Assembly (NCBI GenBank): GCA_030427925.1
Contig: JAUICJ010000004.1
Location: forward strand, 1 to 64,000
DNA from: Bacteroidia bacterium
GTDB taxonomy: Bacteria > Bacteroidota > Bacteroidia > Flavobacteriales_D > Sanyastnellaceae
DNA length: 64,000 bases
Direction: 5' to 3'
Shown here: in pieces, positions 1-5,200 of the stretch
Layout of the letters: every line of letters begins with the position of its first letter
How positions within the stretch are numbered: position 1 is the first letter of the stretch
Translations under genes and position numbers: made by a program
The notes under the pieces: model-generated
The model's input: only the letters and a program-made list of their open reading frames with translations
Told to the model about the DNA's origin: nothing
The model's database searches: none

Positions 1-2066
1 CCTGAGAAGCCTTGGTCCCAGTCGAAGCTGTCATCGCCTGCGAAGGCCACGGCTGCGTAGTTGATTTCGACCGTGCCACCGAAGAACTCGATGCCGTCGT
101 CTTCGTTGGCAACGACTTCGATGTGGTGGATGGTGGTACCCGCGCCGACGCCACCGAGGGTGAGGCCGTTGATTTCATTGGCAGCGGAGAGGGTGGTACC
201 GCCGTGGCGGATGCTCACGTAGTTGAGGACGCCGGAGTTGTCGTTGGCGTTCGATCCACCGTATGCAGCGCGGTCGTTGTCGGCGGGGATGCCTTCGATT
301 TGGCCTTCACCCGTGGGCAAGTTGGTCGGAGCATCACCGAGGATGATGACGCCTCCCCACTGGCCGGAGAGGTCGTAGGCGACGGAGCCGTCGAGGGGGT
401 CGGCTTGGTGCGTGAAGGTGATGGGGCAGTCCGCCGTTCCTTCAGCGAAGATCTGACCGCCGCGAGCGACGATGAGGGCTGCTGCGTCAGCACCGGCACC
501 GGCCATGCCCTTGATGACGGTTCCGGGTTCGATGGTGAGGGCTTGTCCGTCGTTGACGAAGACGTAGCCGTCGAGCAAGTACGTGTTGTTGCAGGTCCAG
601 GTCGTGGTGCCGGTACCTTGTCCAGCGTCGGAGATGATGACTTCCGTGCGATCGGCCAAATCCGGGCAGTCGCAACCGGTGTTGCCACCCGTGTTGCCTT
701 CGCCCTCGTTGACCAAGCCCGTGTCCGCCGCACCGCTTTCGTCGAGGTACGACCATCCGCCGAGCCAGTTCTCACCGTCGGCGTCGAATGCGCCCATGTA
801 GGCGAACGCACCGTTGGCGTCCACGTTGGCGGTCGGTACCGGGTTGAACGGGTTAGTGAACGCCGTTCCAGCCGCGTTGGTGGCCCAGTCGTTGTCGATT
901 CCGACGTTGGCGAGGCTCATGTTGTTGGCAGCCGCGTAGCTGTCGAGTTGGGCATCACCGTCTGCCACGGCCACGCCGTCGTAGTCGATGAGTTCGTTGA
1001 CGTCCTGCATGCGGAAGTTCTCGAGGGTGAGGTCGCCTGCGGCCCACTTGTCGAACGCGTCGGATGGGTTTTGGACGTCCTCGATTTCGATGCCTTCACC
1101 GAAGCCGACGATGAGCACGTTGGAGACGTGTCCACCAGTACCGGCGCGGAAAAGGAGGCCCTGCTTGTTGGCCGAAGAGCCTTGGCCCATGATGGTCCAG
1201 TTGGTGACGGTCGGGATGGCGAAAGGCTGTCCGTTCGTCGTAACGTTGGGGCTGTCGTCGCCGTCGAGCTCACCCCCGCGGTCGCCGAGGCCGGGCTTGT
1301 TGATGGAGAACCAGTGGTGACCGCCGCCCGAGAAGCCTTGGTCCCAGTCGAAGCTGTCATCGCCTGCGAAGGCCACGGCTGCGTAGTTGATTTCGACCGT
1401 GCCACCGAAGAACTCGATGCCGTCGTCTTCGTTGGCAACGACTTCGATGTGGTGGATGGTGGTACCCGCGCCGACGCCACCGAGGGTGAGGCCGTTGATT
1501 TCATTGGCAGCGGAGAGGGTGGTACCGCCGTGGCGGATGCTCACGTAGTTGAGGACGCCGGAGTTGTCGTTGGCGTTCGATCCACCGTATGCAGCGCGGT
1601 CGTTGTCGGCGGGGATGCCTTCGATTTGGCCTTCACCCGTGGGCAAGTTGGTCGGAGCATCACCGAGGATGATGACGCCTCCCCACTGGCCGGAGAGGTC
1701 GTAGGCGACGGAGCCGTCGAGGGGGTCGGCTTGGTGCGTGAAGGTGATGGGGCAGTCCGCCGTTCCTTCAGCGAAGATCTGACCGCCGCGAGCGACGATG
1801 AGGGCTGCTGCGTCAGCACCGGCACCGGCCATGCCCTTGATGACGGTTCCGGGTTCGATGGTGAGGGCTTGTCCGTCGTTGACGAAGACGTAGCCGTCGA
1901 GCAAGTACGTGTTGTTGCAGGTCCAGGTCGTGGTGCCTGTTCCGTCACCGATGTCGGAGACGATGACCTCGGTGCGGTTTGCGAGATCCGGGCAGCCGCA
2001 TTGAGCGGAAACGGCCTGGAAAGCGCCCAACAGCAACGCAGAAGCGGCAATCAGAAGGTGTTTCAT
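1..2066 (-). CDS. T9SS-type surface protein with tandem beta-helix-like units (C-terminus off the window)
   Basis: The gene starts at the ATG at 2066 and continues past base 1, so 688 codons are visible and the C-terminus is missing. Residues 1-21 form a signal peptide ending in VSAQ. The mature part is a Cys-poor, Gly/Asp-rich unit of about 442 residues (TWTCNNTYLLDGYVF, NEDDGIEFFGG, GDDSFDWDQGF) resembling the right-handed beta-helix repeats of Bacteroidota surface proteins. A second unit begins near residue 480. Residues 44-245 and 486-687 are identical, even at the DNA level. The neighbouring gene at 2299-5568 is a diverged paralogue with the same two-unit layout and a C-terminal T9SS domain, so export by T9SS is inferred here too. 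The Asp-rich loops could bind calcium. Function is unknown; adhesion or a surface layer is a guess. Confidence 0.8.
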   Translation of the reverse strand, partial: MKHLLIAASALLLGAFQAVSAQCGCPDLANRTEVIVSDIGDGTGTTTWTCNNTYLLDGYVFVNDGQALTIEPGTVIKGMAGAGADAAALIVARGGQIFAEGTADCPITFTHQADPLDGSVAYDLSGQWGGVIILGDAPTNLPTGEGQIEGIPADNDRAAYGGSNANDNSGVLNYVSIRHGGTTLSAANEINGLTLGGVGAGTTIHHIEVVANEDDGIEFFGGTVEINYAAVAFAGDDSFDWDQGFSGGGHHWFSINKPGLGDRGGELDGDDSPNVTTNGQPFAIPTVTNWTIMGQGSSANKQGLLFRAGTGGHVSNVLIVGFGEGIEIEDVQNPSDAFDKWAAGDLTLENFRMQDVNELIDYDGVAVADGDAQLDSYAAANNMSLANVGIDNDWATNAAGTAFTNPFNPVPTANVDANGAFAYMGAFDADGENWLGGWSYLDESGAADTGLVNEGEGNTGGNTGCDCPDLADRTEVIISDAGQGTGTTTWTCNNTYLLDGYVFVNDGQALTIEPGTVIKGMAGAGADAAALIVARGGQIFAEGTADCPITFTHQADPLDGSVAYDLSGQWGGVIILGDAPTNLPTGEGQIEGIPADNDRAAYGGSNANDNSGVLNYVSIRHGGTTLSAANEINGLTLGGVGAGTTIHHIEVVANEDDGIEFFGGTVEINYAAVAFAGDDSFDWDQGFS
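4..611. repeat. 608-base direct repeat, copy in second protein unit
   Basis: These bases match 1330-1937 without a difference, at a constant offset of 1326 bases (442 codons). The match stops sharply at both ends (base 3 differs from 1329; base 612 differs from 1938). It lies in frame inside the surface-protein gene. Confidence 0.95.
1330..1937. repeat. 608-base direct repeat, copy in first protein unit
   Basis: Partner of 4-611. It encodes residues 44-245 of the partial surface protein. The equivalent two units in the neighbouring paralogue have diverged, so this identity points to recent duplication or gene conversion. Confidence 0.95.
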
Positions 2067-2298: not shown

Positions 2299-5200
2299 TT
2301 ACTGAATCACCAATCGTTGAGTCGACGTTTCTGCGCCGTCCAGCGTTTGGAGCGTCAAGAAATACAGGCCCCCTGGGAGGTGACCGATGTCCAAACGGTT
2401 CATGCCTTGCACCATGGTCAACTCGGCGACCACCCGGCCCAACTCGTCCCGCAACACCGCTTGGCGGAACGCCGTTGCGACTTGCTCAACGTTCAAGAAA
2501 TCCGAAGCAGGGTTGGGGTAGATGCGGGCTTGAGCGCCCTCAATGCCTTCGATGCCCACGTTTAAGATGGTCCAAGTCATGGAGTTCGTGCAGCCCGTGG
2601 AATCGGTCTCCGTCAACAGGATGCTTCCGCCGTTGAAGGGGTCTGACCAGGTGATTTCGAAGGAACCCATCGTGGTCGATGACGCCGATCCGCTTTCGAC
2701 AGTCCACGCGAGGTCGCCCAACACCGGCTCGTACGCATACGCTTCCACCGCACCCGGCTGGACTTCGAGCGAACCGGTCAAGGTCCCGTTCGCCAACACG
2801 TAGCAGCTGCCGTCATCGTCCGTTGCCAACTCATCGAAGTTGCAAGCCGCTTCGTTCGTGCAACCGTACCACGTGCACGAGGCGTCGAACAGGCCGACTT
2901 GGTGTGCGAAGCTCCAGGGCAAGTCGAGCCAGTTCGTTCCGCAGGGTTCGAACGCTCCTTTGTAGTCCGCAGCGACGAACCAAGGACCGTTGGGCAAGGC
3001 ATCCGCGCCCACCGCAACGTCCATCACCGGGTTCACCATCATCGCGTCGGCCACAAACGTGCCCGACGCGTCAAACGCGAAGGTGTAGTCGATTCCTGCC
3101 TCCATGATGGTCAAGTCGTTCGCGGCGGCGTAGGCGTCCATCGTGGTTTGGCCATCCGCTTCAGAACCATCGTAGAAGAACAGCGTGTTCACGTCCATGA
3201 AGCCGATGTGGCTGAAGCCCAAATCGCCGTTCACAAAGTGATCGTAAGCGTCCAACGGCGACTGCAAATCCTCCAACTCGATGCCGCGGTTGAAACCGGT
3301 GATGAGCGAGTTGTGCAAGTCACCCGCAGAGCCCGCGCGGAACAAGGTGCCCGTCGTGCCGGCGTTGGAACCGCGGCCGATGAAGGTCACGTTGTAGAGC
3401 GTCGGGTCGGCATAGGGCAGGCCATCGGGCGTGACGTTGGGGTTGTCGTCCCCATCGAATTCGCCGGCGCGGTCGCCCGCTTCGGGATGCTGCACCGCGA
3501 ACAAGAATTGGCCGTTTCCGGACCATCCTTGATCGTAATCGAACGAGTCATCGCCGGCGAAGAGCACCGCGATGTGGCTGATGTTGACCGTGCCGCCGAA
3601 CAATTCGATGCCGTCATCCTCGTTGGAGACGATTTCAATGTGGTCGATGACGGTGCCGCTGCCGACCGAAGCAAGGGTCAGGCCGTTGATTTCGTTTGCT
3701 GCTGCCAGTTGGGTTCCACCGTGGCGGATGCTCACGTAGCGCAGGACGCCGCTGTTGTCCTCGGCGTTGGTGCCGCCGTAGGCGCTCTGGGCGTTGTCGG
3801 AAGGGATGCCTTCAACTTGGCCTTCGCCCGTGGCCAAATTGTTGGGCGCGCTTCCGCACACAATCAAGCCGCCCCATTGGCCGCTCGTGCCGAAGCTCAC
3901 GCTGCCGTCGAGCGGGTCCGCCTCAAAGGTGAAGGTGATGGGGCACGTCTCCGTACCTTCTGCCATGATCTGCGCACCGCGCGTCACGATGAGCGCCGCA
4001 GCATCTGCACCTGAACCTTCCATGCCCTTGACGATGGTGCCCGGCTCGATGGTGAGGGTTTGGCCCTCGCTCACGAACACGAACCCATCGAGGAGGTACG
4101 TCTTGTCGCAGGTCCACGTTGTCGTGCCGGTGCCTGAACCGTTGTCGGTGATGACGATTTCCTCACGTGCTCCCACGGGGGGGCAATCGCAAAGCAACGG
4201 CTCTTGGAATTCCGGAACCAGCGCGCCGGACTCGTCCAAGTAGCTCCAGCCCGCGAGCCAGTTTCCGTTGACGGCATCGAACGGGTCGAATGCCCCCATG
4301 TACCCGAATTGGCTGAACACCGATGCGTTGCTGTTGGGAACCGGATTGAACGGATCCGTGAACTCCGTGCCCGTGGCGTTCGTGCTCCACGTGTTGTCGA
4401 TGCCCGTATCGAGTGCCCCGATGTTGTTGCTTTCAGCGTATTGGTCCAAACCGCTGTCTCCACCGGGATCCATGACCCCGTCGTAATCGATGACCTCGTT
4501 GACGTCGTCCATCCCGATGTTCACCAAAGTCAAATCGCCATTCACCCACATGTCAAACGCATCGAAAGGTGCCTGCAGGTCCTCCAATTCGATGCCTTCA
4601 CCAAATCCGACCATCAACACTTCCGAAACGTGTCCACCGGTTCCGGCGCGGAAAAGCAGGCCTTGCTTGTTCGCTGCCGATCCTTGACCCATCAACGTGA
4701 TGTTCGAAACGGTGGGAATGGCCATCGGCATCCCATCGGGCGTGACGTCCGGGCTGTCGTCGCCATCGAGTTCACCGCCCCGGTCGCCCAATCCCGGCTC
4801 GTTGATGGCGAACCAGTGGTGCCCTCCTCCAGAGAAGCCTTGGTCCCAATCGAAGCTGTCGTCGCCCACGAAGGCCACGGCGGCGTAGTTCACGTGAACC
4901 GTACCACCGAAAAACTCGATGCCGTCGTCTTCATTCGCCAACACTTCGATGTGGTCGATGGTCGTTCCCGATCCCACACCGGCCAAGGTCAACCCGTTGA
5001 TTTCATTCGCAGCGCCGAGCTGCGTACCGCCGTGGCGGATGCTCACGTAGCGGATGATGCCGCTGTTGTCCTCGGGGTTGTTGCCTCCATAGCTGGAGCG
5101 GTCATTTTCCGAAGGAATGCCTTCCGCTTGGCCTTCGCCGAGGGCCAAATTGATGGGGGCATCGCCCAACACCAAGACCCCGCCCCATTGGCCGCGTTCG

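Follow-up and report, generated by a model that had tools for sequence, protein, structure and literature searches.

A partial gene at the left end of the window, by which we mean the whole 64,000-base stretch analysed here (bases 1-64000 of contig C17, G000:C17:1-64000, in a contig of 135,640 bp), very likely encodes a secreted protein built of tandem units of about 440 residues, probably beta-helical, whose number is altered by recombination. Its two visible units share a segment that is identical at 608 of 608 positions (4-611 against 1330-1937, an offset of 1326 bases, which is 442 codons and in frame), as a sequence-only reading had claimed, and it would seem likely that this identity stems from a recent exchange. 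The features are listed below.

1..3, no strand: contig end; the sole mismatch before the sequence stops is a silent T/C at base 3
3..2066, minus strand: partial gene g2, with a signal peptide (MKHLLIAASALLLGAFQAVSAQ) and two units, cut by the contig end; translation of 688 visible codons
675..2000, minus strand: unit 1, 442 residues; beta-rich, the probable fold being a right-handed beta-helix
3..674, minus strand: unit 2, cut at the contig end just past the motif FDWDQGFS
1330..1937, minus strand: R1, copy 1 of the identical segment (608/608), in the N-terminal half of unit 1
4..611, minus strand: R2, copy 2 of the identical segment; real edge at 611/612, left side abutting the contig end
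2299..5568, minus strand: neighbouring paralogue g1, 1089 aa, with two diverged units starting at about 5502 and 4191
2302..2523, minus strand: T9SS type A C-terminal sorting domain of g1 (PF18962 E 1.1e-7, TIGR04183 E 2.5e-7, both above cut-off)

The repeat-bearing gene and its units

Both g1 and g2 lie on the minus strand. The repeat-bearing gene, g2, starts at about 2066 and has a homologue in synteny in a same-genus genome (G001), with 70% identity over residues 1-457. Its array begins immediately after the signal peptide, with no N-terminal adhesin domain ahead of unit 1. We infer a surface location for the protein, the C-terminus of which is beyond the contig end. It had been described as giant, which goes further than the visible sequence: 688 residues can be read up to the contig end and a large size is suggested by the relatives. 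A plus-strand open reading frame opposite g2 (12-2243, 743 aa) was rejected as the antisense frame of a G+C-rich gene, a by-product of composition.

The family of multi-unit secreted proteins to which these arrays belong is unannotated. No Pfam or NCBIfam model claims the ~440-residue unit and a search of PDB sequences with the unit profile gave no match. A model of unit 1, made from 55 aligned units, is beta-rich with a mean pLDDT of 92 and a pTM of 0.92. Nearly all of the leading Foldseek matches to this model were right-handed beta-helices (AlgE4, pectate lyases, GH87, PfbA and tailspikes); the matches were weak, the best having an E of 0.0025 with none at E 0.001, and TM-scores on the query reached up to 0.34. 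From the model the unit would probably be a right-handed beta-helix, an assignment to a fold class and not to a family. A fold search of viral proteins returned weak beta-helix matches only.

The identical segments and the contig end

The right-hand edge of the identity is real. Just outside it the 75 homologous bases at the unit starts (674 and 2000) are 77% identical, after which 608 bases agree perfectly, and the distinct start that unit 2 has of its own (CDCPDLADRTEVIISDAGQ) is joined in frame to R2. The left edge of R2 is the end of the assembled sequence and is not biological. At base 3 the copies carry T and C respectively, a silent difference (TCA against TCG), bases 1-2 match and the contig then stops. 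Of the sharp edges ascribed to the repeat, the one at 611/612 stands and the other is where the contig finishes. Because the left edge is unobserved, the near-identical stretch is at least 608 bases long.

When codon-aligned, the N-halves of the two units are identical at 570 of 570 nucleotides and at 107 of 107 four-fold sites. Across 25 other adjacent within-gene pairs, assembled in genomes of Bacteroidota and Alphaproteobacteria, four-fold identity ranges from 35 to 74%, though such assembled pairs are a biased sample since identical units tend to escape assembly. Identity of this kind is seen in no other pair of the family, and the pair in L046, a relative whose assembly is one contig, is no exception. 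The two units of g1 have diverged, as had been noted from the sequence, with 70.5% nucleotide identity in the N-half and 57% in the C-half.

Could selection on the sequence, rather than recent exchange, have kept the copies identical? The N-half protein is strongly conserved, and units 1 and 2 of L052 (Flavobacteriales MAG, PKEB01000025.1) show 98.9% amino acid identity with 105 of their 116 differences at third codon positions. Selection on the protein nevertheless leaves four-fold sites free: about one third of them differ in this L052 pair, and pairs with ~99% amino acid identity have a four-fold identity of 33-87%, whereas all 107 agree here. Given this silent-site divergence despite protein identity, the identity in the window is explained by a recent exchange or by an assembly effect and not by selection on the protein, and we regard selection as extremely improbable.

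In an assembly artefact, either the second unit would be truly diverged (or there would be one unit only) and the contig end misextended with reads from the first unit, or the copies would have been collapsed to a consensus. The sequence-only reading had remarked on this risk, which is stronger than it stated since base 1 of the window is base 1 of the contig; g2 runs open to this base, and both the remainder of the gene and the left edge are missing. The genome, G000, is a Flavobacteriales draft of 51 contigs, estimated to be 99.5% complete. For 65 contig ends (45 starts and 20 ends) the terminal 300 bp were compared with the 4-kb end pieces from this set, and a second copy of the 300 bp was present for 30 of the 65 ends, against 5 of 65 interior controls. 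Breaks in repeats are thus usual in this draft, so in part it is to be expected that a long identical repeat should lie at the end of a contig. That the repeat ends 3 bases from the contig end, in a draft whose ends fall in repeats, counts against the preferred explanation, since a collapsed or wrongly extended end could make the copies look more alike than they are. An artefact would also be consistent with the overlap of some contig ends (126, 58 and 161 bp), with the single unit of the same-genus homologue and with a family that holds no other identical pair. However, the unit 2 start at one junction and the base 3 difference at the other are sequence that copy 1 cannot supply, and relatives assembled independently often have multi-unit arrays. 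We infer that the identity is genuine to the organism rather than produced by repeat collapse, and consider an artefact improbable.

The overlapping contig ends in G000 are C4/C13 (~161 bp), C29/C35 (~58 bp) and C6/C32 (~126 bp). A fixed assembler overlap length was dropped from consideration, since the overlaps vary (about 40, 58, 126 and 161 bp). Several ends lie inside the repeats of large repetitive genes, with C37, for example, starting within a repeat. Homologous arrays in other assemblies also start or stop mid-unit at a contig end (L053, L055, L056, L057, L061 and L063).

The rest of g2 was not found elsewhere in G000, whether the protein, the first 611 bases, the first 130 bases or the full same-genus homologue was used as the query. 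This homologue matches 113 places in G000 (e.g. on C30, C22, C11, C2 and C43), nearly all through Cys-rich GCTD...DDGSC repeats and a dockerin-like C-terminal tail. Many large open frames in G000 carry this tail, which is matched by no Pfam or NCBIfam model. The downstream neighbours are not conserved, and queries with downstream genes (the TonB-receptor gene of L052 and a downstream gene of G001) found nothing in G000 that continues g2. In L052 and its near relatives a TonB-dependent-receptor-like gene (L052 10885-13986) directly follows the array gene, an arrangement that is not conserved in G000 or G001.

Unit number and exchange between units

Complete genes of the family have one unit (G001 g2), two (G001 g1, G000 g1 and L058) or five (L052), a range that holds between species and paralogues, with one genome per species. 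G001 keeps the order DnaK - isoaspartyl peptidase - prenyltransferase - two-unit gene, followed by the one-unit gene (genes named here by recognisable sequence, not by family search). The one-unit gene ends in a tail that is Cys-rich and dockerin-like, and at the matching place L052 has an intact 2484-residue gene with five units and a similar tail. The one-unit gene (L039 9438-11729) looks hybrid, its N-half being closest to the window gene (83% nucleotide identity) and its C-half grouping with last units.

The last visible residues of g2, DWDQGFSG, are those of a first-type unit, while the last units of G001 g2 and of the neighbouring gene read DYDQGWHGKG and DYDQGWSGNG respectively. As unit 2 ends like first units and not with the last-unit motif, another first-type unit may come next, and these eight residues mildly favour g2 having at least three units.

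On the preferred explanation, unit number in the family would shift through homologous recombination between units, and the recent exchange would have been either an unequal crossing-over giving a tandem duplication or a gene conversion. One breakpoint would be at 611/612, in the strongly conserved unit start, and the other where the contig ends or past it. The breakpoint at 611/612 is within homologous sequence, the flank being 77% identical, and this fits recombination between units. With unequal crossing-over the identity would run on across the C-half and into another unit; with conversion it need not.

A sub-case of this explanation, whose probability overlaps with that of the whole, is a gene conversion confined to the N-half in a gene of exactly two units, leaving the unit number unchanged. 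The visible identity does stop at base 4, near the junction of the N-half and C-half, and N-halves are exchanged within genes while C-halves stay position-specific. This left edge is, however, the contig end, and the first-type DWDQGFSG at the end of the visible sequence favours another first-type unit next, so that we think conversion of the N-half alone rather unlikely.

Recent intragenic recombination, in either form, and a variable unit number had been proposed from the sequence and are supported by the unit numbers of the relatives, by L052 and by conflicting trees of the half-units. In L052 the resemblance between units 1 and 2 runs from the unit anchor on, while at its start unit 2 is closer to unit 3 (94%) than to unit 1 (69%), and the likeness between units 2 and 3 falls sharply about 150 bases beyond the anchor. 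This pattern would be an older footprint, such as is left by unequal crossing-over within the N-half.

Trees were built from 28 N-halves and 27 C-halves. In the N-half tree the four neighbouring-gene units of both same-genus genomes group as a single clade (support 96/90), and the last-unit class comes together in the C-half tree (85/84, which is not strong). The former grouping is rejected for the C-half (AU p 0.002) and the latter for the N-half (AU p 0.0002), p-values that are optimistic, since the groups were picked once a first tree had been seen. The conflict between the two trees implies that intragenic exchange has recurred. Among 55 units 18 columns are invariant, 16 of them in the N-half, with truncated rows lowering the count in the far C-terminal part. 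The most conserved stretch is the easiest site for exchange, which gives a simple reason for the difference between the halves. Tentatively, the units may undergo a half-unit form of concerted evolution, in which the N-half is repeatedly homogenised within the gene by recombination while the C-half keeps its position-specific identity, although we hold this to be somewhat short of an even chance. If true, changes in unit number and chimeric units, such as that of the one-unit G001 gene, would arise without blurring the position-specific half.

Known systems and distribution

In Periscope Proteins (SasG, Rib and Sgo_0707), a class of surface or secreted proteins, near-identical folded units stand in tandem; homologous recombination within the gene alters their number, and short-read data leave them unresolved (PMC8201768, PMC9704523). 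The units of this class each fold on their own and together make a rod; for g2 a single unit was modelled, with high confidence. The g2 protein resembles them in being secreted, in its tandem units and, for the pair in the window, in DNA-level identity over 608 bases. It differs in the size of the unit, ~440 residues against about 50-165, and in that most unit pairs of its family are diverged. Unit number varies between species and paralogues here but among strains in Periscope Proteins, whose N-terminal functional (adhesin) domain is absent from g2. The host also differs, belonging to the Bacteroidota, which have an outer membrane, and the gene next to g2 carries a T9SS tail. By analogy g2 would behave in a Periscope-like manner; we do not claim membership of the class. 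Our search of the literature on tandem-repeat surface proteins found nothing specific.

Proteins sorted by T9SS type A (TIGR04183 / PF18962) share their C-terminal domain with g1, above cut-off, whereas the same-genus homologue of g2 ends in GCTD...DDGSC repeats and the dockerin-like tail, the C-terminus of g2 itself being beyond the contig end. The predicted fold class is like that of the right-handed beta-helix carbohydrate-active or adhesive proteins AlgE4, pectate lyases, GH87 and PfbA, to which the matches are weak.

The window would clearly capture recombination within a gene from a family of multi-unit secreted proteins that carries no annotation. It also bears on draft genomes, in which long identical repeats tend toward contig ends. 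Since repeats sit there, public assemblies would hide or cut short the newest exchanges in such genes, and a unit count taken from a draft is a lower bound.

Homologous units occur across Bacteroidota, with fewer matches in Proteobacteria, Verrucomicrobia and Myxococcales. Those outside Bacteroidota (Alpha- and Gammaproteobacteria, Verrucomicrobia and a Myxococcales MAG) are at L097, L099, L102, L103, L112-L118, L121, L094, L096 and L105, and L097, L099 and L102 are two-unit arrays.
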